From Halorubrum sp. 48-1-W (GTDB taxonomy: Archaea; Halobacteriota; Halobacteria; Halobacteriales; Haloferacaceae), in NCBI RefSeq assembly GCF_003287355.1, contig NZ_QMIM01000008.1, forward strand, positions 1 through 64,000: 64,000 nucleotides of DNA, given 5' to 3'. Positions 4,552 to 58,450 of the stretch are shown here, piece after piece. The notes beneath the pieces were generated by a model that was not told the DNA's origin, searched no databases, and saw only the letters and a program-made list of their open reading frames with translations. Positions within the stretch are counted from its first letter, which is position 1; every line of letters begins with the position of its first letter. Both the position numbers and the translations under genes were made by a program.

Positions 4552-4827
4552 TCAGTGCTCGATATACGTGGTCTCCCACTCCGTGCGCGCGTCGATCTCG
4601 CGTCGCCCGCGGCGGGTGAGCGTGTAGTAGTTCGTCCGTCGGTCGCGTTGTCCCTTCTCGACGAGCCCCTTTTCGACGAGCGTATCGAGGTTTGGATAGA
4701 GCCGACCGTGGTGGATCTCCTTTTCGTAGTAGTCCTCCAGTTCGTCCTTGATGGCCAATCCGTGCGGCTCCTCGAGACCGGCGATCACGTAGAGCAAGTC
4801 GCGCTGGAAACCTGTGAGGTCGTACAT
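4552..4827 (-). CDS. PadR-family winged-helix regulator
   Basis: A 91-residue protein consisting almost entirely of one PadR winged helix: GFQRDLLYVIAGLEEPHG, a helix with YYEKEIHHGRLYPNLDTL, and the wing TNYYTLTRRGRREI. It resembles short haloarchaeal PadR proteins related to the oxidative-stress regulator RosR, but the sequence alone does not establish that role. The start at 4827 begins at the conserved MYDLTGFQ; a longer frame adds 37 unrelated residues across the AT-rich promoter. A 10-bp palindrome sits between the TATA-like region and the start, which suggests self-regulation. Confidence 0.88.
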   Translation of the reverse strand: MYDLTGFQRDLLYVIAGLEEPHGLAIKDELEDYYEKEIHHGRLYPNLDTLVEKGLVEKGQRDRRTNYYTLTRRGRREIDARTEWETTYIEH

Positions 4828-4839
4828 GCGGCTGTGCGG

Positions 4840-4849
4840 ACATATATGT
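4840..4849. promoter_or_regulatory. Palindrome ACATATATGT in the padR promoter
   Basis: A perfect 10-bp palindrome 13 bases upstream of the padR ATG. On the minus strand a TATA-like AT-rich stretch (about 4852-4866) lies just upstream. The palindrome therefore sits between the box and the likely transcription start, a typical repressor position. Binding by PadR is inferred. Confidence 0.45.
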
Positions 4850-4949
4850 TGAAAATAAATAAATATACCGTTACATAGATCGGAATACGAGGTAATCCGA
4901 CTCATACCGCGGTGGCGTGAGGCGTTCGGAACTACCACGTAATGTACAC

Positions 4950-5190
4950 TAGTTCTCGGATCGGCCGCCGTTTTCGGCGGCTCGGGTATACACTATATCT
5001 AACATGAATCCGACGGATCCGACCCGCCCGTCATCGATGATCGATGAGTTCGGCGCCGACGAACCGGTGGCTGGGGGTTCGATCCTCGAGAACGAACGCA
5101 GGCCCCACGCGGAAAAAAGCCGCGTGAGGCGCACGTTCGAAATTGGTCCCCGCTGACGCTTCGGCCCTCCAGACGAAGCGTCACGTGACG
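4950..5190. other. Hairpin-rich gap, no convincing gene
   Basis: The 400-base gap between padR and the small gene at 5228 has no credible protein. It contains four inverted repeats: a 7-bp stem with a TTTT loop at 4964-4981, a 15-base palindrome at 5032-5046, a 7-bp stem with an A-rich loop at 5106-5126, and a 10-bp stem at 5154-5183 that overlaps a 12-bp palindrome at 5179-5190. A T-loop-like motif near 5080 does not fold into a tRNA. The density of structure could mark a small RNA, transcription terminators or remnants of a small element. Confidence 0.35.
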
Positions 5191-5227
5191 GTATTGGGTT
5201 GATAGTAATAAACCTATCGAGGGTGCG

Positions 5228-5374
5228 CTACATGTGTTCCTCTTCTAACACCCACCCGAGCGCGCGTTTGTAGTGGGTGAAAAGCTCCTCGACCCCACGG
5301 TGGGACATGTCGTCGTCGGCCAACTCCTCACACAGGAACTCGTACTGCTCGCGGACCTCCTCTTCCGAGCGCAT
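5228..5374 (-). CDS. Small acidic conserved-type protein (48 aa)
   Basis: An acidic 48-residue protein, largely helical by composition, ending in LGWVLEEEHM. No domain is recognised. It lies head-to-head with priS, 120 bases away, a position where haloarchaea often carry a short uncharacterised protein. The start MRSEEEV is the first ATG giving a haloarchaeal-type acidic product; the longer upstream frame runs antisense to priS and is rejected. Function is unknown. Confidence 0.6.
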   Translation of the reverse strand: MRSEEEVREQYEFLCEELADDDMSHRGVEELFTHYKRALGWVLEEEHM

Positions 5375-5494
5375 GGGTGCGGTACGGGCGCCCGACTCAA
5401 AGGGTTGTGGTCGCCCTCGAGCCGTAGTCGGCCGTGAGTCGGCTCGGCCGCGAGCGACACGTCTATACGGCGACCCCGGATACACGGTGGAACG

Positions 5495-6658
5495 ATGGAC
5501 GACCGGACGCGCGAGTACCTCCGGGGGCGGTTCGGCGACTACTATCGGGGGACGTCGCTGTCGCCGCCGCCGGACGCACACCTCCGCGAGTGGGGACACA
5601 TCCCGTGGACGCCCGGCGCGGGCACGACGATGGTCCGTCACCAGTCGACGTACGACCTGGGCGATCTCGACACGTTCTTCGCGGACAACGCCCCGCGACA
5701 CGCGTACTTCTCGACTGCGCGATACGACGACCCCGGCGCGTCGACCATGGCGAAGAAAGGGTGGCGCTCCGCGGACCTCGTCTTCGACCTCGACGCCGAC
5801 CACCTCCCTGGGGTCGATCCCGCGGAGGCGACGTACCGGGAGATGCTCGAGGCGTGTCAGGACGCGCTCCGTCGACTGCTCGACTTCCTCGAGACCGACT
5901 TCGCGTTCGAGGACCTCACGGTCGTCTTCTCCGGGGGACGCGGCTACCACGTCCACGTCCGCGACGAGTCGGTCCGGGAGCTGGAAAGCGAGGCCCGCCG
6001 GGAGGTCGTCGATTACGTCCGCGCGATCGACCTCGACGTCGACGGGCTGGTCCGCACCGTCTCCGACCGCGGAACGACGAAGCGGATGCTCCGAACCGAG
6101 GGCGGCTGGGGCGCGCGCGTCCACGACGCGCTCGTCGGGTACGCCGACGACCTCCGGGAGATGGACGACGCGGACGCCCGCGAGCGGCTCATGGAGCTCG
6201 ACGGGATCGGCGAGGGTCGCGCGGAGACGATCCTCGGCGCGTTCGATCGGAACCCCGACGCGGTCCGCGAGGGCAACGTCGAGGCCGGCGGCCCGGGCGT
6301 GCGCCGGCTCGTCTCCGCGCTCGCCGCCCGGGTGGCTGCGACCGACGCCGCCCCGATCGACGAGCCGGTGACGACCGACACGCGCCGGCTCATCCGGCTA
6401 CCCGGAACGCTTCACGGTGGGTCGGGTCTCGTCGTCACGCCAATCGATCGCAACGACCTCGACGAGTTCGACCCGCTCCGGGACGCGGTCCCGGACCGCT
6501 TCGTCGGGCGCGACATCCGGATCGAGGTCGACGAGGACGCGACGGTAGAACTAAACGGAAAGAGGCACACAGTCCAAGCCGGCGAGAACACCGTACCCGA
6601 GTTCGCGGGCGTCTTCCTGATGGCCCGCGGCGAGGCGCGGAAGGCCCCCGAACGATGA
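5495..6658 (+). CDS. priS: DNA primase small (catalytic) subunit PriS
   Basis: A 387-residue archaeo-eukaryotic primase catalytic subunit that makes RNA or DNA primers at the replication fork with PriL. The catalytic acidic motif DLDAD is at 98-102, and SGGRGYHVHV at 146-155 is the nucleotide-binding loop. A third motif, RLPGTLHGGSGL, near the C-terminus matches the conserved RxPxSLHG region. Length is normal. Its stop overlaps the GINS start as ATGA, so the two replication proteins are translationally coupled. Confidence 0.95.
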   Translation: MDDRTREYLRGRFGDYYRGTSLSPPPDAHLREWGHIPWTPGAGTTMVRHQSTYDLGDLDTFFADNAPRHAYFSTARYDDPGASTMAKKGWRSADLVFDLDADHLPGVDPAEATYREMLEACQDALRRLLDFLETDFAFEDLTVVFSGGRGYHVHVRDESVRELESEARREVVDYVRAIDLDVDGLVRTVSDRGTTKRMLRTEGGWGARVHDALVGYADDLREMDDADARERLMELDGIGEGRAETILGAFDRNPDAVREGNVEAGGPGVRRLVSALAARVAATDAAPIDEPVTTDTRRLIRLPGTLHGGSGLVVTPIDRNDLDEFDPLRDAVPDRFVGRDIRIEVDEDATVELNGKRHTVQAGENTVPEFAGVFLMARGEARKAPER

Positions 6659-38167: not shown

Positions 38168-38197
38168 TGGCTAGTCTGATCATGCGAGTTGTCGACA

Positions 38198-39976
38198 ATG
38201 ATCGAAGATATCGAGAGGGCGGAGCTGGAGGGACCGAAGATAGATCGGCGAACGACCGTCAAGCTACTCGGCGCGTCAGGGATCGCGGCGACTGCCGGCT
38301 GTCTCGGGGGAGATAGTGGTGGTGACGGAGACGACGGTAGCGGCGACGACGATGGTAGCGGTGACGACGATGGTAGCGGGAGTTCCGGTGACGACGGAGA
38401 GAGCTCCGGATCCACCGGCGGGCGGATAAGCGCCGGGTGGCTCACGGACGAGATCGAGTTCCTCGATCCGCACATGGTCGATCTGGGGATCCAGATCGAA
38501 GTCCACTCGAACCTCTTCAACGGCCTGTTGAAACTCGATGAGGATACTCAGATCGTCGGCGACGCGGCGGCGGACTGGTCGCTCCCGGACGAGTCGACGT
38601 ACGTGTTCGAGCTCCACGAGGACATGACGTTCCACAACGGGGATCCGCTCGACGCGGAGGCGGTCAAGTGGTCCCTGGAACGGTTGGCCGGCATGGAGAC
38701 CTCCCCGCACACCGGAAAGGTCTCCAACGTCGACTCGATCGAGGCGGACGGACTCGAGCTCACGATCAACCTCTCGGAGCCGTACGCGCCGTTCGTCTCG
38801 TTCATGCTCCGCGGTCCCGGGCGGGCGGGAACGATCGTCCACGAGAGCGCCGCGGACGACCCCGACGAGTACGCGCGGATGCCGATCGGCAGCGGGCCGT
38901 TCGAACTCACGGACCGGACCGCCGGCGAGTCGCTGACGCTCGACGCCTACGACGACTACTGGGAGACCGACGAGGACGGCAACCAGCTCCCGTACCTCGA
39001 CGGGGTCGACATCGAACTGATCCCCGAACCGAGCACGATGTGGTCCGCCATTCAGGGTGGCGAGATCGATTACGCGAACCTGCTCACGGGCGAGTTCGCA
39101 CAACAGGCGGAGGCGACCGACTCCATCACGGTCCAGACGGCGAGTTCGGGCGAGTGGTCTGGTATCGCGCCACTCCACATGAACCCTGCCGACGAAACGG
39201 AGACGGTGCGGTGGATCAGCGGTCTCGGCGAGGACCCCACGGAGATGTGGAACGGCGAGGACATCCCGACGTCGGACCCGCGCGTTCGAGAAGCGATCGC
39301 CATCGGGATCGACCGGGAAGAGATCGTCGAGCGGGCCTGGTTCGGGTACGCTGAACCGGCTCACACGCTGTACAATCCGGCAATCGGCTGGCTGTTCGAG
39401 GCGTTGGGCGGTAGCGAACCCGACACGGGATTCTATTACGACCCCGAGCGCGCCGAGGAACTCCTCGATGAGGCCGGATACACCGATGATCCGCGGATCG
39501 AAGCGACGGTCCTGGCCCTTCCGGAGGACGAACGGGAGCTCACGGTCGTTCAGGACCAACTCAGCGACATCGGCATCGAGATCGAACTCGATATCCAACA
39601 GCAGTCGTCCTACTGGGACAACACTTACCGATACGAGCAACTCCTGACGGCGTACGGTGGCGCGGCGGACGTCGACCCGTGGATGTCGGACTTCAAGCAG
39701 TTCGGCTACCCGAACGAGGAGACGACGGAGGGTGCGTGGCAGCGTAGCCTCTACTTCGACGAGGACTACAGCGAACTCATCAACGAAGCGAACGCGACTC
39801 CGGACCTCGAGGACCGCGCGGAGGTGTATCTGGACGTCAACGAGAAGTTCATCGAGGACGCGGTGTTCGTCACGACGGTGTTCCCGCTGAACCCGAAAGC
39901 GCTCGGTGAGGTCGTCTCGGGAGTAGGGACACAGGGGGGATTAAGCAACTTCCATCGTGCCTCGTTGGATGAGTAG
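38198..39976 (+). CDS. Peptide ABC transporter substrate-binding lipoprotein (SBP family 5)
   Basis: A 592-residue extracellular binding protein. A Tat signal DRRTTVKLLGASGIAATAGC ends in a lipobox with Cys35. A Gly/Asp/Ser linker of about 40 residues with an 18-bp repeat follows, then a family-5 binding domain in normal order: WLTDEIEFLDPHMV, FELHEDMTFHNGDPLDAE, the GSGPFEL motif, DPRVREAIAIGIDREEIV, and the C-lobe EELLDEAGYTD ... DVDPWMSDFK. It captures peptides or similar ligands and feeds the permease pair downstream. The ATG at 38198 is preferred to an in-frame TTG nine bases upstream. Confidence 0.92.
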   Translation: MIEDIERAELEGPKIDRRTTVKLLGASGIAATAGCLGGDSGGDGDDGSGDDDGSGDDDGSGSSGDDGESSGSTGGRISAGWLTDEIEFLDPHMVDLGIQIEVHSNLFNGLLKLDEDTQIVGDAAADWSLPDESTYVFELHEDMTFHNGDPLDAEAVKWSLERLAGMETSPHTGKVSNVDSIEADGLELTINLSEPYAPFVSFMLRGPGRAGTIVHESAADDPDEYARMPIGSGPFELTDRTAGESLTLDAYDDYWETDEDGNQLPYLDGVDIELIPEPSTMWSAIQGGEIDYANLLTGEFAQQAEATDSITVQTASSGEWSGIAPLHMNPADETETVRWISGLGEDPTEMWNGEDIPTSDPRVREAIAIGIDREEIVERAWFGYAEPAHTLYNPAIGWLFEALGGSEPDTGFYYDPERAEELLDEAGYTDDPRIEATVLALPEDERELTVVQDQLSDIGIEIELDIQQQSSYWDNTYRYEQLLTAYGGAADVDPWMSDFKQFGYPNEETTEGAWQRSLYFDEDYSELINEANATPDLEDRAEVYLDVNEKFIEDAVFVTTVFPLNPKALGEVVSGVGTQGGLSNFHRASLDE

Positions 39977-44298: not shown

Positions 44299-45354
44299 TC
44301 AGCGGTCGGGGGTGACGCCGTGTCCGGGCCCCGAGATCTCGTGGATCGGGCCGTCGCTGCTCTCGACGACGTCCTCGGCCAGCAGTCGATTGCCGTCGAG
44401 GTCGACGTACGAGAAGCTCCCGATCCCGGAGACGACGTGGGCGCTGGCGTGGATGCCGATCGAACTCTCGAGCATACAGCCGACCATGAGATCGAGACCC
44501 GCCCCCTCGGCGATAGCGGCGATGTCGGCGACCGCGAGCGGTCCTGATTTCCCGAGCTTGACGTTGATGACGTCGGCCGCCTCCTCCCGAACGACGCGGA
44601 CCGCGTCCTGCGGCGTGAAGACGGTCTCGTCGGCGGCGATCGGTACGTCGAGACGGCGACGCGTGTCCGCCAGTCCTGCGACGTCGCTCGCCGGAACCGG
44701 CTGTTCGATCAGTTCGAGGTCGATCCCCCGTTCGGCGACGCGCTCGGCGAACGACGCGGTCTCCTTCGGGGTCCACCCCTGATTGGCGTCGACTTTCAGG
44801 TCGGCGTCCGGCGCTGCCTCCCGTATCGCGGCCACCCGCGCTACGTCCTCGTCAACGTCGTTTCCGGTCTTGATCTTCAGATGGCTGTACCCGCGTTCGA
44901 CCGCCCGCCCGGCACGTTTCCCGGCGGTTTCGGGGTCGACGATGGGGATGGTCATGTCCGTCTCGACCGGGGAGGGCGTGCCGCCGAACAGCTCCGAGAG
45001 CGCGATGTCTCGCTCCCGACAGAACGCGTCCAGAAGGGCTGTTTCCACGGCGAACGTCGCCGAAACCATCCCCGGGAACGTGCTCCGTACCTCGTCGACG
45101 ATCCGCCGGTAGTCGCCGACCGATCGTCCCTCGACGACCTCCTCAGCCGTGCGGGCCGTCGCGAGCGCCGCCTCGCGCGTTTCGCCGGTCACCGGTGGGA
45201 GCGGCGACCCTTCGCCGTATCCCTTCGTTCCCGTCTCCGTCTCGACCGTCACGAGGACGTTCGCGGCCTCGCGTTGAACGCCGAGCGAGATCTCGAACGG
45301 CTCCGAAAGCGGGAGGTCGAGCGGTTCGGCCCGGAGGTCGACGACGGTGCTCAC
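44299..45354 (-). CDS. dgcA: Enolase-superfamily epimerase/racemase, DgcA-like
   Basis: A 351-residue member of the enolase superfamily, MLE subgroup. Acid/base residues are Lys160/Lys162 (LKIKTG) and Lys266 (NVKLGKSG); metal ligands are Asp189 (KVDANQGW), Glu217 (IEQPV) and Asp242 (ADETV). GCMLESSIG is typical of dipeptide epimerases. It pairs by a GTGA overlap with the DUF1611/DgcN gene. In bacteria that pair (DgcA/DgcN) converts D-glutamate through N-acetyl-D-glutamate to N-acetyl-L-glutamate. L-Ala-D/L-Glu epimerase activity is the main alternative. It is last in the leftward operon. Confidence 0.75.
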   Translation of the reverse strand: MSTVVDLRAEPLDLPLSEPFEISLGVQREAANVLVTVETETGTKGYGEGSPLPPVTGETREAALATARTAEEVVEGRSVGDYRRIVDEVRSTFPGMVSATFAVETALLDAFCRERDIALSELFGGTPSPVETDMTIPIVDPETAGKRAGRAVERGYSHLKIKTGNDVDEDVARVAAIREAAPDADLKVDANQGWTPKETASFAERVAERGIDLELIEQPVPASDVAGLADTRRRLDVPIAADETVFTPQDAVRVVREEAADVINVKLGKSGPLAVADIAAIAEGAGLDLMVGCMLESSIGIHASAHVVSGIGSFSYVDLDGNRLLAEDVVESSDGPIHEISGPGHGVTPDR

Positions 45355-46430
45355 GCTTCACCTCCCGCCGTTTCGCGCGGTATCTCCGGCAACTCGCCCC
45401 GAACCGCCCGCAGGAGGTCTTCGGCTCCCCCTTCGTCGTAGACGTTCGCTGTCGGGAGGTCGTGTCGATCCCGCTCCGTCTCCGGGTCACCCCAGGTCGA
45501 GACCGCGGCGACGACGGCGTCGGAGAGGGATTCGACGAGTTCGGCCTCCTTCTCGACCCCGTCGACGCCGAAGCGGTCGAAGTGTGTCCGTCGTGTTCGC
45601 CGTGGATCGTCCGCGAGGACGACGGTATCGGGCCACGAGCCGTGGAGCACACCGAGCGTGACGCTGGAGTACGCCCGATGTGTGAGCGACGCCTGCCCCT
45701 CGACGAAGACGAGGTCGTGGTCCGCGCCGACCGACTTCACCATGTCCTCGACGACGCCGCCGGTGAAGTCGGCCGGGACTCGGTCGACCACGACACCCTC
45801 GTGGGCCCCGACCATGATCCCGGTCTGGCCGGTGGCGACCCAGCCGGCGTTCAGACCGGCCTCCCGCGCAGCCCGATAGAGCTCGAACGTCGTCGTGCGC
45901 TTGCCGACCGCACAGTCCGTCCCGAGCGTGAGCACCACGTCGGCGTCGACGTCGTCGACGGACCCGTCCCCGACGCGAAGCGCGTCCTCATCGGGTGGTT
46001 TTCGTACGTCGTGGATCCGGGCGTCGTGTTCGTCCGCCAGTCTCGACCAGCGTTCGTCGTCGCCGAGGAAGTAGTGGAGACCGCTCACGACGTCACAGCC
46101 GTGACGAAGGGCGTCCTCGATGTCGCCGACCCACGCGTCGGGGAGCTGTCCGCCCGCCGGCGCGACCCCGATGACGAGTGCCTCGGCTTCCGGAGCGATG
46201 TCGAGGGCGTCGTCCACGCACTCCACGATCGGGACGTCGGGTGCGTCGCGCTTCTCGAGGACGTCGGCCGGCGTCTGCCCTGCCGTCTCCGAATCGACTA
46301 TCCCCCGGACGTCGAACACCTCGCTGTGCGTGACGACCCCGTTGGCCGTCTTCCCGCCTTTCTTCCCGAACTCCCCCTCCGCGAGAACGATGGCGGGTGC
46401 CGGGACGTCGAACGTGTCTCGAAGGTTCAT
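45351..46430 (-). CDS. dgcN: DUF1611 protein, DgcN-like N-acetyltransferase
   Basis: A 359-residue DUF1611 protein. A short N-terminal domain precedes a nucleotide-binding-like core with a P-loop-like LTLGTDCAVGKRTTT near 167-181, then GWVATGQTGIMVGAHEGVVVD and VEGQASLTH. The family pairs with an enolase-superfamily racemase in bacterial D-glutamate catabolism, where it is reported as an N-acetyltransferase, DgcN. Here it overlaps the DgcA-like gene by four bases and follows the NAAAR-like enolase gene by 86 bases. The archaeal substrate is untested. Confidence 0.72.
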   Translation of the reverse strand: MNLRDTFDVPAPAIVLAEGEFGKKGGKTANGVVTHSEVFDVRGIVDSETAGQTPADVLEKRDAPDVPIVECVDDALDIAPEAEALVIGVAPAGGQLPDAWVGDIEDALRHGCDVVSGLHYFLGDDERWSRLADEHDARIHDVRKPPDEDALRVGDGSVDDVDADVVLTLGTDCAVGKRTTTFELYRAAREAGLNAGWVATGQTGIMVGAHEGVVVDRVPADFTGGVVEDMVKSVGADHDLVFVEGQASLTHRAYSSVTLGVLHGSWPDTVVLADDPRRTRRTHFDRFGVDGVEKEAELVESLSDAVVAAVSTWGDPETERDRHDLPTANVYDEGGAEDLLRAVRGELPEIPRETAGGEA

Positions 46431-46516
46431 CGGATACGAGACCGTCGCTCCCGTTCAAGCAAAACCCCACAACCTTCCATGATCGGTCCCTCCACGGTCC
46501 CACGTCGAGCGGCCGT

Positions 46517-47653
46517 TCAGTTGACTCGATACCGTTCGACCGCTGTATCGTCCACCGTCACGCCGAGGCCCGGGTCGCTCGGAACCGTGAAGCGGTCGCC
46601 GGACGGTTTCCAGGCTCCCGGGTCCTCGACGAGCGTCGACGTCGCGTGGACGTTCAACACGCCGGACGGATAGGTGACCGCGGGTGATGACGCCGCGAAG
46701 TGGGCGTTGGCGGCCGTTCCGATCCCGAGTTCGAGCATCGACCCCATGAAACAGGGGAGTCCGTGCGCGTTCGCGACGGTCGCGACGTCACGCGCACGCG
46801 AGAGTCCGCCGGTTTTCGCGAGTTTGATGTTGACGGCATCACAGGCGTCCCGCCCCGCGAGGTCCGCGACGTCCGCCGGAGAGAAACAGGCCTCGTCGGC
46901 AAGCACCGGAACGGCCGTCGCCTCCCGTACTCGGCGGAGTCCCTCGACGTCGTCGTGGGGCACCGGCTGTTCCACCAGAACGAGGCCGTCGGCGGCCTCG
47001 TCGAGACGGCGAACCCGACGTATCGCTTCGGCGGCTACCCACCCCTGGTTGGCATCGATCCGGACCTCCGCGTCGGGAACCGCCTCGACGATCGCGGCGA
47101 TCGCCTCCCGTTCGGCCTCGAAATCCGGTCCGCCCACCTTCACTTTGAACGCCGTGAACCCCTCCTCGCGGGCCTCGACCGCGAGTTCGCGAACCTCCTC
47201 CGGCGGACGGATACCGATGGAGTAGTGGAGGTCGATCGTCGGCTCGCCGTCGGGTGCGCCACCGAGCAGGTCGTACACGGGGCTGTCGCGGAGCTTCCCT
47301 AACGCGTCGTACAGCGCGACGTCGACGCCGCTGAGCGGGAACGGCTCACCCGAGAGGACCCGCTCCGCTCTGTCGACGAGACGCGGGATCCGGTGGAGCT
47401 GCTCGCCCTCGACCAGCGGCGCGAGGCGGTCCTCGATCAGGTCGACGACCGCGCGCCGTGTCAGCCCGTGTGGCCACGTCGAGGACGGCGCGACCTCGCC
47501 GACACCCGTGACGCCGGCGTCGGTTTCGACGCGGACGAGGACGTGGTCGTACGACCCCTGTCCGCCGGTCGCGACCGAGAGGCTCGTCTCGTAGGACGTC
47601 TCCGCCGGCACCGACACCGGGATCGCCTCGACGGCGGTGACCGTGGCCGTCAT
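46517..47653 (-). CDS. Enolase-superfamily N-acylamino-acid racemase-like enzyme
   Basis: A 378-residue MLE-subgroup enzyme distinct from its DgcA-like neighbour. Visible residues are Lys in FKVKVGGPD, Asp in RIDANQGW, Glu in LVEQPV, Asp in LADEAC and Lys in NIKLAKTGG; GSMLELGIG is characteristic. The close relatives are muconate cycloisomerase, o-succinylbenzoate synthase and N-succinyl or N-acyl amino acid racemase. Coupling by an ATGA overlap to a D-aminoacylase makes racemisation of N-acylamino acids the most economical reading. Menaquinone biosynthesis is unlikely in this context. Confidence 0.72.
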   Translation of the reverse strand: MTATVTAVEAIPVSVPAETSYETSLSVATGGQGSYDHVLVRVETDAGVTGVGEVAPSSTWPHGLTRRAVVDLIEDRLAPLVEGEQLHRIPRLVDRAERVLSGEPFPLSGVDVALYDALGKLRDSPVYDLLGGAPDGEPTIDLHYSIGIRPPEEVRELAVEAREEGFTAFKVKVGGPDFEAEREAIAAIVEAVPDAEVRIDANQGWVAAEAIRRVRRLDEAADGLVLVEQPVPHDDVEGLRRVREATAVPVLADEACFSPADVADLAGRDACDAVNIKLAKTGGLSRARDVATVANAHGLPCFMGSMLELGIGTAANAHFAASSPAVTYPSGVLNVHATSTLVEDPGAWKPSGDRFTVPSDPGLGVTVDDTAVERYRVN

Positions 47654-49245
47654 GCGCCGATCACGTCTCCGGGGCGTGCGCCGGTGTGGTCGCCGTCGCG
47701 GACGACGAACTCCCCGTTGACGAGGACGTGCTCGATACCGGCGGGGTAGACGGCGGGGTCGAGGAAGTCGCCGGTCTGCTCGACGGTCTCCGGGTCGAAC
47801 ACCGTCACGTCGGCCCGAGCGTCCCGTTTCAACACCCCCCGGTCGTCGAGCCCCAGCCGCGAGGCGGGCATCCCGGTCATCTTGTGGACGGCGCTCTCGA
47901 GCGGGACCACGCCCTCCTCGCGGACGTAGTTGCCGAGCACGCGGGGGAACGTCCCGTAGTTCCGCGGGTGCGGAACGCCCTCGCCGAGCGGGCCGGACTG
48001 CTGGAGGGAGGACCCGTCGCTGCCGACCATCGTGAGGTCGTGACGCATCACCGTCCGGACGTCGGCCTCGTCCATCCCGAAGTTGACGTGCATGGTCCGG
48101 TTCTCGTCTTCGAGGACGATATCGAGGAGGATCTCGGCGGGCTGTCGCGTCTCCCCCTCGCGGTCTGCGAGCTCGGCGATCGTCTTCCCCTCGTACGCCT
48201 TCATATCGGGGTTCTGGACGCCAGTGACGAGGATCCCGTCCCAGTCGCTCGTGCGGTCGTCCTTCAGATCGTCGCGGATTCGGCTCCGCGTCTCCGGGTC
48301 CCGGAGCCGCTCTAAGAGCGCGTCGTCGCCGCCGTCGTGGGCCCAGTTCGGGAGGAGCGCCCCGAGGCTCGTCGAGGAGGCGACGTAGGGGTACTGGTCA
48401 CACTGGATCTCGATCCCCTCACGCCGTCGGACGAGTTCCATCCGTCGGAGCGTCGCCCGCACCTTCCCCCAGTTGTCGGGGCCGACGGCCTTGTGGTGGG
48501 ACACCTGTACCGGAACCCCTGCCCGGCGGCCGATCTCGATGGTCTCCTCGACGCTCTCGAGGAGGCCGTCGCTCTCGGAGCGCATGTGGGTCGCGTAGAA
48601 CCCGCCGTGTTCGGCCGCCACCTCGGCGAGCGCGGTGACCTCGTCGACGTCGGCGTAACAGCCCGGCGGGTAAAACAGGCCCGAGGAGAGGCCGACCGCC
48701 CCGTCCGCCATCGCCTCGGCGACCAACTCGCGCATCTCGGCGAGTTCGTCGGGCGACGGGTCGCGGTCCTCGTATCCGACGACGGCCGCGCGGACGTTCC
48801 CGTGGCCGACGAGCGACCCGACGTTGAGCGAGAGGCCGTCGGACTCGAGGTACGCGAGGTATTCGGCCATCGACTCCCACTCGCCGGCGTCGACCTCGTC
48901 GTCCAGTCCCCGGCTCGCGAACCAGTCGTCGACGGAGCGGGCGGCCGCCCCGTACCGCGGTGCCGCGCTCGTGCCGCAGTTCCCGACGATCTCGAGTGTC
49001 ACCCCCTGTCTGACCTTGCTGTGGGCGTCCCGGTTCGCCGGCAGGGTGAAATCCGAGTGGGTGTGGATATCGATGAACCCCGGCGCGACGACGTCGCCGT
49101 CGAGGTCGACCTCGACGTCCCCCTCGCCCTCGACCGTGCCGAGGGCGGCGACCCGACCGTCGGCGATGGCGACGTCGCCGCGATACCACGGGGAGCCGGT
49201 TCCGTCGACGATCCGTCCGTTCCGGAGCACGCAGTCGTATCCCAT
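47650..49245 (-). CDS. N-acyl-D-amino-acid deacylase (D-aminoacylase) 1
   Basis: A 531-residue amidohydrolase of the D-aminoacylase group, which releases D-amino acids from N-acyl-D-amino acids. The metal motif is DIHTHSD (61-65), the zinc-bridging Cys90 sits in VGNCG, and further histidines occur in ATHMRSES and QVSHHKAVG, with Asp in VGSDGSS. SSGLFYPPG is a family signature. It is first in the four-gene leftward operon and overlaps the racemase start. The ATG at 49245 (MGYDCVLRN) is the conserved N-terminus; an upstream extension is rejected. Confidence 0.88.
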   Translation of the reverse strand: MGYDCVLRNGRIVDGTGSPWYRGDVAIADGRVAALGTVEGEGDVEVDLDGDVVAPGFIDIHTHSDFTLPANRDAHSKVRQGVTLEIVGNCGTSAAPRYGAAARSVDDWFASRGLDDEVDAGEWESMAEYLAYLESDGLSLNVGSLVGHGNVRAAVVGYEDRDPSPDELAEMRELVAEAMADGAVGLSSGLFYPPGCYADVDEVTALAEVAAEHGGFYATHMRSESDGLLESVEETIEIGRRAGVPVQVSHHKAVGPDNWGKVRATLRRMELVRRREGIEIQCDQYPYVASSTSLGALLPNWAHDGGDDALLERLRDPETRSRIRDDLKDDRTSDWDGILVTGVQNPDMKAYEGKTIAELADREGETRQPAEILLDIVLEDENRTMHVNFGMDEADVRTVMRHDLTMVGSDGSSLQQSGPLGEGVPHPRNYGTFPRVLGNYVREEGVVPLESAVHKMTGMPASRLGLDDRGVLKRDARADVTVFDPETVEQTGDFLDPAVYPAGIEHVLVNGEFVVRDGDHTGARPGDVIGA

Positions 49246-49402
49246 GTGATCGAACCGCGTACCGGGGAGGGTAAAGTATGCCACCGTCCAAGTGCGGGGT
49301 GTTCCCACCCGGATCGTTCGATCCGAGCGGACGCGCCACGCCGGGCGGGCCGTCACGAACCGGGTCGCGGAAAGACGGCCGTCAGGAGAGGAAAAACGGC
49401 CG

Positions 49403-49968: not shown

Positions 49969-50469
49969 ATGGGACTACAGGACATCATCGATGCCGCCGA
50001 GGCCGTCGGCGATCACGACGAGGCCCGCCGGTCGACGTTCCGGGAGGAGTTCGAGGCGTACGAGTCGGGGGAGGTCGACTCGTTCCCCCGGACGTGGGAG
50101 GCTATCGCGGACGAGCGTGACGCGCTCGAACGGCTCGCGGACCAGCTGGACGCCGAGGAGGGGAACATCGACGAGCTGGTCGATCGAACCGAGTTCCTCA
50201 CCGTGGATCAGGCGGTCCGCCACCGGGAGCAGACGATAAAAAAACTGGAGGCACACAACGAACACCTCCACCAGTTCCACGACGCGATGGCCGCCGCGCT
50301 CGACAGGATCGAGACGAACCTCTCCGAACTGGGGTCTGGCGACCCGGGATCGCTCGATGAGGACCCACAGCCACAGTTCGAGCGTGCTCGCGACGCCTTG
50401 GACGACCACAACGAGGCAGTCGAGGATCTGGGTACAAACCTCACGATCCTGAACGCGTACCTCCGGTGA
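49969..50469 (+). CDS. Coiled-coil protein, unknown
   Basis: A 166-residue acidic protein, predicted almost fully helical. Heptad-rich segments are DERDALERLADQLDAEEGNIDEL and REQTIKKLEAHNEHLHQFHDAMAAALDRIET, consistent with a coiled coil. No signal peptide or known domain is visible. The ATG at 49969 is the first start after an AT-richer promoter stretch. Its relation to the surrounding transport genes is unknown. Confidence 0.65.
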   Translation: MGLQDIIDAAEAVGDHDEARRSTFREEFEAYESGEVDSFPRTWEAIADERDALERLADQLDAEEGNIDELVDRTEFLTVDQAVRHREQTIKKLEAHNEHLHQFHDAMAAALDRIETNLSELGSGDPGSLDEDPQPQFERARDALDDHNEAVEDLGTNLTILNAYLR

Positions 50470-50654: not shown

Positions 50655-52406
50655 ATGTCTACCAATCGACGCGAATTCATGCGTAAGATGGGTGCCGCCG
50701 GGGCGGCCATCGGCAGTGTGAGCATCGCCGGGTGTTCCGGAGAACAAACGACCACGACCGACGGCGGCGGCGACGACGGCGGCGGCGGATCGGGTGCCCG
50801 AGTGGTGGAGGAGGACCTCCCCGAAGAGCGGATGATGGACGACGTGATCCACCTGGCGTACACCGAACAGTACAACCCCGGTCGCTACCAGGCGAACCGG
50901 CTGGTCGACCAACGCCTCACCGACGAGATGGGGATCCCGACGGTGACGGACCCGGTGGAAGCGACGGTGGTCAGCGACCGCGAAGAGTCTGGCGACTACG
51001 ACATCGTCACGTACCGGTGGAGCGCGAACAACGGCGAGCCGGACAGCATCATCGTGACGCGATTCGCCTCGGACGGATCCGAGAACTGGACGGGGTTCTC
51101 GAGCGAGGAGTACGACGAGATCGCCTACGAGCAGCGACAGGAGACGGACGACGAGACCAGACAGGAGCTCGTTCACGAGGCACAGGACATCATCGGGGAA
51201 CAGCGCCCGGAGAACCAATACCTGTTCAACGAATACTACTACGCGTTCCGTAGCGACCGGTTCGAGGAAGACTCCGTCGTCGTGACCGACACGGGACTGC
51301 GTAACATCTGGAACTACACCCAAATCGAGCCGAAAAACGAGGAGGGGAACACCATCATCACGAACAACTGGGACCCGTCCGACCAGTTGAACCCCCTCAA
51401 CGCCAACGCCATCGGGCCCAGCCGGAACTGGGTTCCCACGCGGTTCATGCACGACTTCCTCATCCGGACGGGACCGGAGCTGGAGGCCCAGCCGTGGGCG
51501 GCGACGGAGTGGGAGTGGGAGGACGACACCACGGTCACGTTCCAGCTCCGTGAGGGGATGACCTTCCACGACGGGGAACCGGTTACCGCCAGCGACGTCG
51601 TGTGGACCTACGAGATGATGCTCGATCTGGAGCCGCCGGCGTACCTCAACAACGTCGTTCAGGTCGTCGATAGCGTCGAGCAGGACGGCGACTACACGGT
51701 GACGTTCACTCTCGAAGAGCCGTACGTTCCCTTTATCAAGACCACCGCTGGGATCGTGCCCATCCTCCCCGAACACTACTGGACCGCGCTGATGGAGGAG
51801 ACGGGGACGACCGAACAGCCCTGGCAGATCACGATCGACGACGACAACCCGGTGGTCGGATCCGGCCCGTTCCAGTGGGGAACGTGGGACCAGGGATCGC
51901 GGTTCGAGATGCCGTCGTTCGACGACCACTTCATGGCGCCGAACATCGACAGGCGGATCCAGCGGCCGCTGTCGACGAGCGACGCCGAGATGGAGGCGTT
52001 GATCAACGGTGACTACGACCTGCTCGATTACTGGTTCGGCGACACACAACAACTCCAGGAGACGGTCGAGGAGAACGACTCCCTGGGTGCGATAGAGACG
52101 CTCGGGAGCGGTCGGCAGTCCGCGTGGGTGAACTGTCAGCGGCCGCCGTTCGACCACGTGCCGATGCGCCAGGCGTTCAACGCGGTGGTCAACGACACCC
52201 AACAGACCATCATCGACGAGGCGTTCGACGGGTTCGGACAGGAGGCACGCACGTTCATCAATCCCTCGCTCGAGTTCTGGCACAACGAGGACACGACGTT
52301 CTTCGATGGCGGGATCGAGGGCGCGACGACGATCCTCGCGGACGCCGGCTACGTGTGGGACGAAGAGGGGAACATCCACTACCCGGAAGGGATGACCGGA
52401 AAGTGA
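50655..52406 (+). CDS. Peptide-binding lipoprotein with apparently permuted SBP-5 domain
   Basis: A 583-residue binding protein. The Tat/lipobox signal NRREFMRKMG ... SIAGC ends at Cys27. The order of segments is unusual. Residues about 65-225 look like the C-terminal lobe of family-5 binding proteins (RLVDQRLTDEMGIP, DYDIVTYRWSANNGEPDS, YDEIAYEQ ... DETRQELVHEAQDIIGE). Residues about 232-583 are the N-lobe and hinge (TFQLREGMTFHDGEPVTASD, GSGPFQW, PPFDHVPMRQAFNAVV), ending in TTILADAGYVWDEEG where the C-lobe normally begins. The break points match, so circular permutation is the simplest reading. The permeases and ATPases follow. Confidence 0.85.
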   Translation: MSTNRREFMRKMGAAGAAIGSVSIAGCSGEQTTTTDGGGDDGGGGSGARVVEEDLPEERMMDDVIHLAYTEQYNPGRYQANRLVDQRLTDEMGIPTVTDPVEATVVSDREESGDYDIVTYRWSANNGEPDSIIVTRFASDGSENWTGFSSEEYDEIAYEQRQETDDETRQELVHEAQDIIGEQRPENQYLFNEYYYAFRSDRFEEDSVVVTDTGLRNIWNYTQIEPKNEEGNTIITNNWDPSDQLNPLNANAIGPSRNWVPTRFMHDFLIRTGPELEAQPWAATEWEWEDDTTVTFQLREGMTFHDGEPVTASDVVWTYEMMLDLEPPAYLNNVVQVVDSVEQDGDYTVTFTLEEPYVPFIKTTAGIVPILPEHYWTALMEETGTTEQPWQITIDDDNPVVGSGPFQWGTWDQGSRFEMPSFDDHFMAPNIDRRIQRPLSTSDAEMEALINGDYDLLDYWFGDTQQLQETVEENDSLGAIETLGSGRQSAWVNCQRPPFDHVPMRQAFNAVVNDTQQTIIDEAFDGFGQEARTFINPSLEFWHNEDTTFFDGGIEGATTILADAGYVWDEEGNIHYPEGMTGK

Positions 52407-52460: not shown

Positions 52461-53444
52461 ATGGTTAATAAACGATACGTCGCCCGCCGGTTCGCGCTGA
52501 TGCTGGCCTCGCTTTTCATCGTCATCACGATCCTGTTTTTCCTCTTCCGGCAGGTCCCGGGTGGCCCGATGTCGGCGTTCACGAACCCCCGGATGAGCCA
52601 GGCAGCGCGACAGGCCGTCATCGAACAGTACGGGTTGAACGATCCCCTGTGGCGACAGTACATCCGGTACATGGTGAACGTGGCCCAACTCGACTTCGGC
52701 CAGTCGTTCTACTACGGGAGTTCGGTGTCGGCGCTCATCACCGACCGGTTCCTGAACACGATGAGCCTGATGCTGACGGCGTTCACCATCTCGTACACCG
52801 TCGGGACGTACCTCGGCGCACAACTGGGGTGGCTCCGGGGGACGGCGAAGGAACGGGTCGGCATGGTGGTCGTCCTGTTCGTCCGCTCGATGCCGGTGTT
52901 CTGGACGGGGATGGTCATCCTCTACGTCTTCGGCTTCCAGCTCGACGTCTTCCCGATCGGCGGGATGCGGGAGTCGACCGCGAGCTACGACACCACGACG
53001 GCGAAGTTCCTCAGCACCGACTTCCTGTACCACCTGGTGTTGCCCGTGTTCACGCTATCCACCTACTACACGGGGTTGCCGTTGTTGTTGATGCGAAACA
53101 ACATCCTGGAGGTGCTCTCGGAGAGCTACATCGACACGGCGCGCGCCAAGGGACTCACCAATCGGCGGGTCCTGTTCGTCCACGCCGCACGCACCGCCAT
53201 CCTCCCGGTCGTTACCGCGTTCGCGATCGCGATCGGGTTCGCGGTCGGCGGACAGGTACTGATCGAACAGGTGTTCTCGTGGCCCGGTCTCGGCCGCGAG
53301 ATGGTTCAGGCGTCGCTTCGGAGCGACTACCCCGTCGCACAGGGTGCGTTCGCGCTCCTGTCGGCGATCGTCATCACGATGAACTTCGTGGCGGATCTGG
53401 CCTACACGTACCTCGATCCGCGAGTCAGGCTGGGGGAGAGCTAA
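52461..53444 (+). CDS. dppB: Peptide ABC transporter permease 2 (DppB-like)
   Basis: A 327-residue DppB/OppB-type permease. It has an N-terminal helix, the family motif FRQVPGGPMSAF, the GLNDPLWRQYIRY segment, and the EAA loop ESYIDTARAKGLTNRRVLFVH. It ends with YTYLDPRVRLGES, the usual family finish. The ATG follows the permuted binding-protein gene by 54 bases and its stop is one base from the next gene. Confidence 0.92.
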   Translation: MVNKRYVARRFALMLASLFIVITILFFLFRQVPGGPMSAFTNPRMSQAARQAVIEQYGLNDPLWRQYIRYMVNVAQLDFGQSFYYGSSVSALITDRFLNTMSLMLTAFTISYTVGTYLGAQLGWLRGTAKERVGMVVVLFVRSMPVFWTGMVILYVFGFQLDVFPIGGMRESTASYDTTTAKFLSTDFLYHLVLPVFTLSTYYTGLPLLLMRNNILEVLSESYIDTARAKGLTNRRVLFVHAARTAILPVVTAFAIAIGFAVGGQVLIEQVFSWPGLGREMVQASLRSDYPVAQGAFALLSAIVITMNFVADLAYTYLDPRVRLGES

Positions 53445-53445
53445 C

Positions 53446-54393
53446 ATGAGCGAGGAAACGGACACGAGCGGACGAACCGTGACCGAATCGAGGGGGACCA
53501 AACAGGGATGGCGTCGGTTCTTCCAGAACCTCAAGCGGTCGAGCCGCGAACAGGCGGAACTGTTCGTCCAGTCGCGGCTGGCGGTCGCGGGACTGCTTAT
53601 CGTCCTCTTTTATTTCATGCTCGCAGTGATCTCGCCATACATCGTCCCGTACGGACCGAGCGAGCGGATCTACATGGCTGACGGAACCTGGGCGTCGCTC
53701 CAACCGCCGATGGCCGGCCATCCACTCGGCACGACGGACGCAGGGTACGACGTGCTCTCACAGTTGCTTTTGGGGTCGCGTATCGCGATGTTCGTCGGCC
53801 TGCTCGGTGCCTTCATGGTCGCCGTCATCGGGACGACGGTCGGTATCGTCGCCGGGTACTACGGCGGCTGGATCGACGAGGTCGTGATGCGGGTCGTGGA
53901 CATCCTCTACGGGCTCCCGTTCATCCCGTTCGTCGTCGTGATCGCGACGGTGTTCGGCGCCAGCGTCTGGAACATCATCTTCGGGGTCGCCCTGTTGTAC
54001 TGGCTCTCCACCGCCCGGGTGATCCGATCGGAGGTGTTGAGCGTCCGCGAGCGACCGTACATCGAGGCCGCCGAGGCCGCCGGAGCCTCCGATTTCCGGA
54101 TCATGGCCGTTCACATCCTTCCGAACGTCATTCCGCTGTCGGCGCTGTACGCCGCCATCGCCGTGGGGTACTCGATCGTCGCGCAGGCGAGTATCGCGTT
54201 CCTCGGGTTCGGCGACCCGAACGTTCCTTCGTGGGGCGTGATGCTCCAGCGGGCGTTCGTGACCCAATCGTTCGGCGAGGCGTGGTGGTGGACGTTACCG
54301 CCCGGACTGTCGATCACGTTGGTCGTCATGGGGGCGTACCTCGTCGGTCGCGGATACGAGGAGGTCGCCAATCCGCAGCTACAGGAGAAATAA
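53446..54393 (+). CDS. dppC: Peptide ABC transporter permease 2 (DppC-like)
   Basis: A 315-residue DppC/OppC-type permease. After a cytoplasmic head the first helix is AVAGLLIVLFYFMLAVISPY, then HPLGTTDAGYDVLSQLLLGSR and the EAA loop RPYIEAAEAAGASDFRIMAVH. GTTDAGYDV replaces the usual GTDxxGRD at a conserved point. It is separated from both neighbours by one or two bases, so the operon is tightly coupled. Confidence 0.92.
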   Translation: MSEETDTSGRTVTESRGTKQGWRRFFQNLKRSSREQAELFVQSRLAVAGLLIVLFYFMLAVISPYIVPYGPSERIYMADGTWASLQPPMAGHPLGTTDAGYDVLSQLLLGSRIAMFVGLLGAFMVAVIGTTVGIVAGYYGGWIDEVVMRVVDILYGLPFIPFVVVIATVFGASVWNIIFGVALLYWLSTARVIRSEVLSVRERPYIEAAEAAGASDFRIMAVHILPNVIPLSALYAAIAVGYSIVAQASIAFLGFGDPNVPSWGVMLQRAFVTQSFGEAWWWTLPPGLSITLVVMGAYLVGRGYEEVANPQLQEK

Positions 54394-54394
54394 C

Positions 54395-55480
54395 ATGAAA
54401 CGAGCAACAGCAACCTTCGATTTCGACGACGACGCACCGTTGTTGGCCGTCGAGGACGCCGTCGTGACCTACTCGACGAGCGGCGGTGACCTCACTGCCG
54501 TCGACGGCATCAGCTTCTCGGTCGACGAGAACGAGATATTCGGCCTCGTAGGCGAGTCCGGTTGCGGGAAGAGCACGGTGGCACAGGCCATCTTGAGCCT
54601 GCTTCCGAGCAACGGTCGTGTCGCCTCCGGGTCCGTCCGATTCCGGGGAATAGAGCTCACCGAACTGTCGAAACGCGAACTCGACGCGCTCCGCTGGGAG
54701 CATTTCTCGCTCATCAGTCAGGGCGCGATGAACGCGCTCAATCCGGTCCATCGGATCTCCAACCAGATCGTCGAGGCGATCCAGGCCCACCGGGACGTCA
54801 CGACCGACGACGCACGGGAGCGAGCAGCCGAACTGTTCGAGGTCGTCGGGCTCGATCCGGACCGAATGGACGATTACCCTCACCAGTTCTCCGGCGGAAT
54901 GAAACAGCGGGCGTACATCGCCATGTCGCTGGCGCTCGATCCCGACCTCATCATCGCCGACGAACCGACGACCGCACTCGACGTCATCGTTCAAGACCAG
55001 ATCCTCAAGCGGTTGAAGCAGCTCCGCGACGAGCTCGGCATATCGGTCATCATCATCTCCCACGACATCAGCGTGATCGCGGAGACGTGTAACCGACTCG
55101 GCGTGATGTATTCGGGGAAGCTGATGGAGTACGGCGACCTCAAGGAGATCTTCGCCGATCCGTACAATCCCTACACGCTGGGGTTACAGAACGCGTTCCC
55201 CACGCTCCGGGGCGATCAGTCGGACCTCATCAGCGTCCCGGGGAGTCCGCCGGACATCGCTGACCTCCCTGACGGTTGTCGGTTCCTGGATCGGTGCCCG
55301 TTCGCTACCGCCGAGTGTGAGACGGAACACCCCCCGTTAGAAACTGTGGGGGAGGATCACGCGTCGGCGTGCTACCATCACGACTCCATCGAACGGATGC
55401 GCGAGGAGGCGAAGAACCGGGAGACGTGGGAGCGAACGGGATCCGACACTGTTCCTACTGGAGGTATCGGTGATGACTGA
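54395..55480 (+). CDS. dppD: Peptide ABC transporter ATPase 2 (DppD-like)
   Basis: A 361-residue ABC ATPase. It has Walker A GESGCGKS, signature FSGGMKQRAYIA, Walker [13 protein letters not shown] and IISHDISV. The Q-loop reads ISQGAMNALNPV instead of the common [10 protein letters not shown], but the Gln is retained, so it is probably active; this variant occurs in peptide ATPases. The C-terminal cysteine motif CRFLDRCPFATAEC is present. It overlaps the last gene of the operon by eight bases. Confidence 0.92.
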   Translation: MKRATATFDFDDDAPLLAVEDAVVTYSTSGGDLTAVDGISFSVDENEIFGLVGESGCGKSTVAQAILSLLPSNGRVASGSVRFRGIELTELSKRELDALRWEHFSLISQGAMNALNPVHRISNQIVEAIQAHRDVTTDDARERAAELFEVVGLDPDRMDDYPHQFSGGMKQRAYIAMSLALDPDLIIADEPTTALDVIVQDQILKRLKQLRDELGISVIIISHDISVIAETCNRLGVMYSGKLMEYGDLKEIFADPYNPYTLGLQNAFPTLRGDQSDLISVPGSPPDIADLPDGCRFLDRCPFATAECETEHPPLETVGEDHASACYHHDSIERMREEAKNRETWERTGSDTVPTGGIGDD

Positions 55481-56648
55481 GGACGCCCCCGTCCCCGACG
55501 GCGGCGACGCCGAATACATCATGGAGTGTGAGGGCCTGAAAAAGTACTTCAATACGGAAAAGGGGTTGCTGAGCGGGCTCTTCGGTGGGGACGAACAGGT
55601 CCGCGCGGTCGACGGGATCGACCTCCAGATCGAGGAAGGCGAGATCGTCGGCCTCGCCGGCGAGTCGGGATGTGGGAAGACCACGGCCGGAAAGACGCTC
55701 ATCCGCCTGCTCGACTCGACTGACGGCCGGATCTACTTTCGCGGACGAGACGTGACGAACATCTCCGGTTCGGAACTTCAGCGGTTCCGTCGGGACGTTC
55801 AGATAATCTTCCAGGACCCGTTCGAGAGCCTGAACCCGCGGATGACCGTGTACGATGCGGTCGTCGAGCCGCTGAAGATCCACGGGATCGGGGACGCCGA
55901 CGAGCGGTACGAGCGGGTTATCGAGGCGCTCGAGCGTGCGGAGCTCACGCCGCCGGAGACGTGGTTCGAGAGCTATCCACATCAGCTCTCCGGCGGCGAG
56001 CGTCAACGGGTCGCCATCGCTCGGGCGCTCGTGCTCGAACCGGAGTTCCTCCTGGCCGACGAGCCGGTGTCGATGCTGGACGTCTCGATCCGGGCCGGCG
56101 TCTTGGAGTTACTCCAGCGGCTGAACAGGGAACTCGACCTGACGATCCTCTTTATCAGCCACGACTTATCACTACTCAGACAAGTGTGTGACCGGATCGG
56201 GATCATGTATCTCGGGAGGATAATCGAGTCAGGGGAGACGGAGCGGATAATCAGCGACCCGGTACATCCCTACGCGAAGGCGCTGATCGGGGCCGCCCCG
56301 GAACCGGACCCGTTCAGCGACCGCGAACACGTCGAGATCCGCGGATCGATCCCCGACCCGATCGACCTCCCGAGCGGCTGTCGGTTCAAAGGCCGGTGTC
56401 CGGAACGTGAAGAGATATGCGATCACGTCGACCCCGCCCTCCGCCCGATCGGACGGGAAGACGGCTCCGGCTCGAGGCGAAACGTCGCCTGTCACGCCTA
56501 CTACGACGAGGAGGACGTCGCGGCCTACGAGTCGGAACTCCGGGGAACGGAGGGAGTTCCCGAGGACGTACTGGAGAACCCCCACCGAAAAGTCCCCCTC
56601 GAGGAGACGGACGACTCCGACCTCGACTCGGATATCACGGCGTACTGA
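55473..56648 (+). CDS. dppF: Peptide ABC transporter ATPase 2 (DppF-like)
   Basis: A 391-residue ABC ATPase. It has Walker [23 protein letters not shown], signature LSGGERQRVAIARAL and Walker B FLLADEPVSMLD; the conserved Ala of the usual SALD is Met, seen in some family members. The C-terminal cysteine motif is CRFKGRCPEREEIC, followed by a charged tail. The ATG at 55473 has a GGAGGT site six bases upstream inside dppD; a GTG directly before it is the alternative. It ends transporter 2. Confidence 0.92.
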   Translation: MTEDAPVPDGGDAEYIMECEGLKKYFNTEKGLLSGLFGGDEQVRAVDGIDLQIEEGEIVGLAGESGCGKTTAGKTLIRLLDSTDGRIYFRGRDVTNISGSELQRFRRDVQIIFQDPFESLNPRMTVYDAVVEPLKIHGIGDADERYERVIEALERAELTPPETWFESYPHQLSGGERQRVAIARALVLEPEFLLADEPVSMLDVSIRAGVLELLQRLNRELDLTILFISHDLSLLRQVCDRIGIMYLGRIIESGETERIISDPVHPYAKALIGAAPEPDPFSDREHVEIRGSIPDPIDLPSGCRFKGRCPEREEICDHVDPALRPIGREDGSGSRRNVACHAYYDEEDVAAYESELRGTEGVPEDVLENPHRKVPLEETDDSDLDSDITAY

Positions 56649-56774: not shown

Positions 56775-56828
56775 TCCGGGCGTCCGTACGACCGGGATCG
56801 GTCCGAGCGTCCGTACGACCGGGATCAG
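56775..56828. repeat. Imperfect 27-bp tandem duplication at the M81 gene 3' end
   Basis: Two 27-base units (56775-56801 and 56802-56828) differ at two positions. The second unit reaches the stop codon of the leftward M81 gene. Confidence 0.75.
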
Positions 56829-58360
56829 TCCCAATCGGGATAGGCGTCGTCGTCCATCTCGTCGAGGGGGAACTGGGGTCGGTGGATCCGGGTGAAGTCG
56901 AACTTCCGCAGGTCCATCGCGACGAGGCCGATGCTGTTTATCGGGATGACTTCACTGGACATCGGTTCGTAGTCGGCCCGGAAGTGGTTCGTGCTCTTGA
57001 CCACCAGCACGTCGAGTCGCTCGGGCTGGATCCCGACGTGCCGCCAGATCTCGGCGTCGAGCGGTTGCATGCGGTTCTCCGTGACGATCACGCTCACTCC
57101 GTCCTCGTGGCCACATTTCAGGTGGACTCCCGTCCCCAGATGGTTCTCGCTACCGGTCCCCATCGGACCGGTGTTACGGAACTCGCCGTCGGTGATCGCC
57201 TTCACGTAGCCGTCGAGGTCCTCGATGGGATCGCCGTGTCGGTCATCCGTCTTCCCACCGAGGTCGACCGTCACCCGCTCGCCGACGCCTGCCTCGACAC
57301 AGGCGTCGACGACTTCGGGGTCACGAACGATGGCGAAGCCGGCGTTCGTCAGCCCTTGATCGAGCATCTCTCGGAGGACCGTCGTTCCGTCGGCAGCGCC
57401 GCCGCCGCCGGGGTTGTCGCCGACGTCGGCCATCACGATCGGTCCACTGTCCTCGTCCAATGTGTCGAGGAGGTGTCGTGCCTCCTCGACCGCTTCCTCG
57501 GGTTCGGGATAGTCACCGACGAAATCATCTCGGTGTTCCCAGACGTGTGTCGCCAGCGCCCTGGCGATCTCGCGGGCGAGATCGGGATCGTCGTCGGTGA
57601 CGACCGGGATCGACCAGGTCATTGAGGGAACGTCGGCCTGATAGAACCCCGGGAACACGTTCACTTTTATCACGTCGTCGCGCTCCTCGTACTCCCGGGC
57701 GAGTTCCATCACCTCGGTCATCGGTCCCTCACGCGTGTTCTGTTTCGGGCCGAAGGGGAGGACCGGCGGGCGTTCGATGGCCATCGTCGGATCTATCTCA
57801 CCACGCATCGTTCGCGTGAGGTACCGCATCGCGCGGCGGCCGGTGTCGCCCATGTCGGTGTGTGGATACTCCTCGTAGGCGACCAGGACGTCCGCCTCCT
57901 CGACGAGCTGGTCGGTGTTGTTGCCGTGGAGGTCGAGGGTGACGGCGATCGGGACGTCGGGACCGACCCGTTCGCGGACCGCGGCAACCAGCGGCCCTTC
58001 GCCGTCGTCCATCCCCTCCGGAACCATCGCGCCGTGGAGACAGAGACAGACCCCGTCCAGATCGTCGCCGTGTTCCTCGACGCCGTCAAGGATCTCCCCA
58101 GTGTAAAAGTCGTAGGCGTCCGACGCGACGACGCCGCTGGGTGTGGCGGACGCGGACACGGTGTACCGGAGATCGACCCCCTCCTCCTCCGCGACCTCCA
58201 TTGCGCCCCCCTCACAGGTGTTGGTTCCCCCCATCCGTTCGGGGATCTCCTCGCCGAAGTACTCCCGGCGCTCCTGGAACAACGACCGACCGGTTTTCCC
58301 GCTCGCGAACGTGTTCGTCTCGTGAGCGAAACCACCGAGCAGCACAGTCTCGTTTGACAT
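56825..58360 (-). CDS. M81-family metallopeptidase (MlrC-like)
   Basis: A 511-residue protein of the M81 family, named after microcystinase MlrC. It starts MSNETVLLGGFAHETNTFA with the conserved His-Glu pair, then LCLHGAMVPEGMDDGEGP, TLDLHGNNT and YEEYPHTDMGDTGRR, which carry the likely zinc ligands. GDNPGGGGAADGT lies in the C-terminal half. MlrC cleaves a peptide linked to an unusual (Adda) amino acid; other members are uncharacterised and some lie in amino-acid catabolic clusters. Here it is divergent from a D-aminoacylase, so action on non-standard peptides is a reasonable guess. TATA-like bases near 58386 suggest a leaderless transcript. Confidence 0.83.
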   Translation of the reverse strand: MSNETVLLGGFAHETNTFASGKTGRSLFQERREYFGEEIPERMGGTNTCEGGAMEVAEEEGVDLRYTVSASATPSGVVASDAYDFYTGEILDGVEEHGDDLDGVCLCLHGAMVPEGMDDGEGPLVAAVRERVGPDVPIAVTLDLHGNNTDQLVEEADVLVAYEEYPHTDMGDTGRRAMRYLTRTMRGEIDPTMAIERPPVLPFGPKQNTREGPMTEVMELAREYEERDDVIKVNVFPGFYQADVPSMTWSIPVVTDDDPDLAREIARALATHVWEHRDDFVGDYPEPEEAVEEARHLLDTLDEDSGPIVMADVGDNPGGGGAADGTTVLREMLDQGLTNAGFAIVRDPEVVDACVEAGVGERVTVDLGGKTDDRHGDPIEDLDGYVKAITDGEFRNTGPMGTGSENHLGTGVHLKCGHEDGVSVIVTENRMQPLDAEIWRHVGIQPERLDVLVVKSTNHFRADYEPMSSEVIPINSIGLVAMDLRKFDFTRIHRPQFPLDEMDDDAYPDWD

Positions 58361-58450
58361 GTCCCTTCGTCCCAACCACTCCCGGTTAAGATCGGGACCT
58401 ATCATGGTCAGGGGTGTGCCGTCGACGCCGAACCGGCGGCCACCCGTGGA

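Follow-up and report, generated by a model that had tools for sequence, protein, structure and literature searches.

Segment order in the binding protein

Positions 50655–52406 of the 64,000-nucleotide stretch of Halorubrum sp. 48-1-W DNA analysed here (the window) encode a substrate-binding protein (SBP), and the question raised by this locus is whether it is a circular permutant of the family-5 peptide-binding proteins, as had been proposed from a reading of the sequence alone, and, if so, whether it belongs to a working transporter. The forward-strand open reading frame is intact, running from an ATG at 50655 to a stop codon at 52404–52406 and specifying 583 amino acids, which begin with a twin-arginine/lipobox signal (RREFMRKMG...SIAGC). 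Automatic annotation labels such permuted proteins plainly as 'ABC transporter substrate-binding protein'. The layout of the gene and its partners is given in Table 1.

Table 1. Parts of the permuted SBP gene, its operon partners and the canonical SBP used for comparison
Feature	Coordinates	Strand	Basis
Tat-type signal peptide, lipobox (IAGC, Cys27) and Gly/Asp-rich tether, forming the new N-terminus	50655..50837	+	Sequence; lipobox and tether lengths in relatives
C-part block, homologous to the C-terminal part of canonical SBP_bac_5 (canonical profile ~362-510; DppA 374-472)	50838..51314	+	phmmer, profile and HMM matches
Junction linker YTQIEPKNEEGN, from ancestral C-terminus to ancestral N-terminus	51315..51350	+	Linker lengths in relatives; conserved, under purifying selection
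N-part block, homologous to the N-terminal part of canonical SBP_bac_5 (canonical profile ~40-359; DppA 44-340), ending at AGYVWDEEGNIHYPEGMTGK	51351..52403	+	Pfam, phmmer, profile and HMM matches
DppB/OppB-type permease, same operon	52461..53444	+	Pfam BPD_transp_1 and BPD_transp_1_N; in the permuted-SBP permease clade
DppC/OppC-type permease	53446..54393	+	Pfam BPD_transp_1 and OppC_N
OppD-type ATPase	54395..55480	+	ABC_tran and oligo_HPY
OppF-type ATPase	55470..56648	+	ABC_tran and oligo_HPY
Companion SBP_bac_5 protein in canonical order (comparison)	38189..39976	+	Pfam and HMM/profile matches

The Pfam family SBP_bac_5 (PF00496) matches the window protein only at residues 284–578, with 199.6 bits against a gathering cut-off of 32.4, and this match covers profile positions 2–284 only; the absence of a Pfam domain from roughly 240 residues at the N-terminus of such proteins is accounted for by the permutation. 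The companion SBP belongs to the same Pfam family and is likewise a Tat lipoprotein with its own BCDF set, but differs by its standard order, as had been supposed: it is matched in one piece over profile positions 2–352 of 368, and the HMM and profile matches also follow the canonical order.

Comparison of the window protein with PDB sequences using phmmer aligned residues 282–572 with DppA 44–340 (i-Evalue 1.3e-16) and residues 97–192 with DppA 374–472 (i-Evalue 5.3e-5), each block being significant independently. Likewise, positions 231–561 of a profile of the permuted family matched chain residues 22–350 of AppA (1xoc; 2.3e-67), and positions 60–217 matched residues 361–512 (5.1e-16). To avoid circularity, an HMM was built from 34 canonical-order proteins and no permuted sequences, and its matches to the window protein ran from hmm 371–502 (2.7e-22) to hmm 40–359 (1.7e-63): all PF00496 segments are present, while the canonical N-to-C order is absent and the blocks are swapped. 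With the same HMM, the C-block lay ahead of the N-block in 52 of 52 permuted relatives, so that the order first noticed here is also that of the orthologues. All 52 share a single common breakpoint at about profile position 360, the N-block ending at position 355–364 and the C-block usually starting at 359–379. The blocks are separated by a linker of 10–17 residues in 48 of the 52 (about 12 in the window protein), the four longest linkers (34–55 residues) occurring in the members that diverge most, for which the limits of the blocks are less sure. In an alignment of 29 permuted members, with identity down to 27%, the chains end at the same place. The permuted profile aligns permuted proteins as one colinear domain, or as colinear pieces in the most divergent, and canonical proteins as two swapped pieces. 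Through the swapped DppA and AppA blocks, the permuted-profile test and the canonical-only HMM, the proposed circular permutation is upheld, and comparison at the sequence level confirms the window protein as a natural circular permutant of SBP_bac_5.

All significant matches seen for the window protein or the permuted profile, in Pfam and among PDB sequences, belong to family 5. No colinear permuted structure was found among the best 60 of the 113 PDB sequences matched by the permuted profile; in these the best stretch lay in the N-block (profile ~224–570), on chains of canonical order. AlphaFold2 models of the window protein, made with shallow alignments, reached pLDDT values of 35 (single sequence) and 30 (four near-identical relatives) and were not used.

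Position of the cut and expected fold

The chain stops at the AGY helix, as had been noticed earlier, with a dG.l.yP tail after the helix. The earlier description of a C-lobe followed by an N-lobe held as to the swapped blocks but not as to the lobes themselves: by the domain boundaries of DppA and OppA (domain III of DppA spans about 261–478), the cut would fall inside lobe 2 (domain III), which would be split between both ends of the chain, and therefore whole lobes would not have been exchanged. The old termini, by the same boundaries both on lobe 1, are fused by the new linker of about 12 residues, which would close that lobe.

The sequence shows that what forms the C-terminal segment of ordinary family-5 SBPs here comes after the signal peptide, and that the chain starts and stops at the equivalent of the loop after the AGY helix. 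The protein would be expected to adopt the usual two-lobed fold, its new termini lying on lobe 2. The mature product is predicted to be a membrane-anchored substrate-binding lipoprotein of a Dpp/Opp-type ABC importer, its lipid tether hanging from lobe 2 and not from lobe 1, and would close on its ligand like other SBPs and supply the adjacent DppB/C/D/F proteins. The normal set of ABC partners that had been assumed for it is indeed encoded next to it, according to the Pfam domains of the permeases and ATPases.

Distribution

Colinear permuted relatives show 27–92% identity. Close orthologues occur in Halorubrum and other haloarchaea and on Haladaptatus plasmids; the Haladaptatus orthologue has the same operon and the same gene neighbours, and other haloarchaea share the following permease. 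At a threshold of E ≤ 1e-90, the permuted profile found a match in 96 of 292 haloarchaeal genomes, spread over 41 of 77 genera. Among 345 genomes sampled from the phylum, 28 matches reached E ≤ 1e-85, and every one of them has the window's order. The Halorubrum sp. 48-1-W genome itself contains ten family-5 SBP genes, six permuted and four canonical. Among plasmids (PLSDB), from which the bacterial spread is known, coverage of a junction query is 80% or more in 49 records, of which 48 match in a single piece, and no higher than 63% in the next best; bacterial permuted SBPs were found in Microvirga, Nitratireductor, Neorhizobium, Roseomonas, Ketogulonicigenium and Maritalea. The remaining one of the 49, a Fusobacterium record (H80) matched in two pieces, was judged to be a joined canonical protein and was excluded from the permuted count. 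A search of viral contigs gave one 336-residue fragment. The expectation that the permuted order would be unusual is therefore not sustained by haloarchaeal genomes and plasmids, where it marks a widespread subfamily. The design recurs in some alphaproteobacteria and in about one-third of the haloarchaeal genomes sampled, which suggests a long-established, working subfamily to which domain databases give no separate mark.

Origin of the permuted order

Two readings would deny a true permutation. The order might be an artefact of assembly or a recent rearrangement, and hence a broken gene of one genome, which is conceivable in that the genome is a draft of 69 contigs; but independent haloarchaeal genomes and complete Haladaptatus plasmids show the same order, at 47–92% identity. 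Purifying selection, moreover, acts on both blocks and on the junction: measured against three close relatives (85–92% identity), dN/dS is about 0.07–0.21 in the signal and tether, the C-part and the N-part, and 0–0.17 in the 12-codon junction. This reading, refuted by the independent complete replicons, has a negligible chance of being correct and was rejected. Alternatively, the protein could be a truncated SBP that has gained, by fusion, a second copy of a C-terminal fragment or some unrelated domain, as the lack of Pfam annotation over the first 240 residues might suggest. Against this, the N-terminal block (~362–510) is exactly the segment absent from the other end (40–359), each occurring once and with no notable overlap, and its match is significant alone in every relative. 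The complementary single-copy blocks revealed by the canonical-only HMM led us to reject fusion, which is highly improbable. It is very likely, on the comparisons made here, that the circular permutation is present in what is predicted to be a working SBP; this judgement extends neither to the cargo nor to the route of origin.

The history of the permutation was examined in a quick tree for which permuted and canonical sequences were rotated into one order. In this tree 28 of the 29 permuted SBPs fall together in a single clade (SH-aLRT 95). The DppB-type permeases adjoining permuted SBPs, compared among themselves and with those of canonical systems, also group as a clade (bootstrap 100, SH-aLRT 98); its sister, a small group, works with canonical SBPs that come from other families of the phylum. 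The exception in both cases is locus L044, whose permease groups with canonical systems, and therefore either a second permutation event or a swap of partner is possible there. Repeated permutation at this one loop, as a hot spot for viable cuts, would accommodate the position of L044 and its permease and the permuted order of the L044/L117-type proteins, but L044 sits on a long branch, the remaining 28 group together and a single clade of all 29 is not rejected (p-AU 0.34); we regard repeated origin as rather unlikely. For the treponemal protein TpMglB-2, Brautigam et al. (2016) proposed that permutation is an answer to lipid anchoring, in that tethering by a different end gives the binding site more freedom (PMC4990184), and the same might hold here. 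A lipobox is present in 47 of 52 permuted proteins, in which the new N-terminus is the anchored end; on the other hand, the five without it are all alphaproteobacterial (five of five such members examined, with Ketogulonicigenium WP_013385786 and Maritalea WP_117397031 as examples of such relatives) and are permuted nonetheless, and canonical lipoproteins work with a similar tether length (median 34 residues, against 29 in permuted lipoproteins). For these two reasons tethering alone fails to explain the persistence of the design, and anchoring is an unlikely cause.

The simplest reading is one main origin with the permease co-inherited. The permutation would most likely have arisen once in one Opp/Dpp transporter lineage, probably by tandem duplication and trimming, and would have spread jointly with its permease across Haloarchaea and into some Alphaproteobacteria. 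Neither a remnant of the duplication nor an intermediate that would support the tandem-duplication route was found. A natural duplication was observed at L116 (G002:C1), where a 1582-aa open frame (1114–5859, minus strand) contains two tandem SBP_bac_5 N-blocks, and this could illustrate the kind of intermediate needed for permutation. Very divergent permuted SBPs are encoded at L044/L120 (G000:C7:5500-12500) and L117; also at L117 (4600–6351, plus strand), a family-5 SBP gene broken by a stop that separates two blocks adjoins the L044-type gene in G006.

Genomic neighbourhood and possible cargo

Between the canonical and permuted ABC operons, at 44302–49254 on the minus strand, lie two enolase-superfamily epimerase-like genes, a DgcN-like DUF1611 gene and a gene for a D-aminoacylase-like amidohydrolase; the permuted operon is followed at 56828–58405, again on the minus strand, by an M81/MlrC-type peptidase gene. 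The Haladaptatus orthologue (L031) is surrounded by the same set of epimerase-like, DgcN-like, D-aminoacylase-like and M81 genes. The genes at 44302–47653 match the families of DgcN and DgcA/Ala-Glu epimerase and so resemble genes of D-glutamate racemisation (dgcN is treated in PMC12363236), but their NCBIfam scores lie below the curated equivalog cut-offs. Solely from these epimerase, DgcN-like, D-aminoacylase-like and M81 neighbours, it may tentatively be proposed that the cargo consists of peptides or N-acyl amino acids containing D-residues, which is the least certain step of the argument. In the phmmer alignment the window protein has Asn at the position of DppA Asp408, the residue that binds the amino group of the ligand, and it might be speculated that this Asn suits a ligand whose amino terminus is not free.

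Upstream of the permuted SBP gene, a 166-aa coiled-coil-like protein is encoded at 49969–50469 on the plus strand. Similar proteins, with a common C-terminal motif NLTILNAYL, adjoin the SBP gene at L008 and L010; at L031 and L038 the annotation has a hypothetical gene of 501 bp in that place.

Relation to known binding proteins

The window protein resembles DppA, AppA and OppA (SBP family 5, PF00496, cluster C) in that both blocks are homologous over nearly the full length and DppB/C/D/F-type genes lie next to it; it differs in its swapped segments, its displaced termini and the Asn noted above. The nearest published precedent is Treponema TpMglB-2 (Tp0684), a permuted glucose-binding protein described as 'cluster Bc' or Type Ic (PMC4990184). 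By its description, this too is an ABC-importer SBP that is circularly permuted in nature and represents a subfamily found in other species, and it still binds ligand and changes conformation despite the permutation (PMC4990184). It is set apart by its sugar-binding cluster B fold, permuted in the N-lobe, and by its occurrence in Treponema and Gram-positives, whereas the window protein belongs to family 5/cluster C, has had its termini moved to the loop that follows the AGY helix and has relatives in Haloarchaea and Alphaproteobacteria. No published permuted family-5/cluster C SBP was found in the open-access literature, subscription journals lying outside the search.

We favour, with some reserve, the view that these proteins constitute an ancient clade of permuted cluster C SBPs ('cluster Cc') that has not been described before and has inherited a permease lineage of its own alongside, and which makes up the majority of family-5 SBPs in some haloarchaea (six of ten here), and in which the anchor and free ends would have moved from lobe 1 to lobe 2, possibly altering docking on the permease. 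SBPs of family 5 rank among the most common receptors for nutrients. From a large natural branch of permuted members it would follow that the two-lobed fold can accommodate a break within lobe 2 and need not always be anchored by the same lobe, and such a branch would provide natural test material for the roles of tether position and lobe identity in docking.
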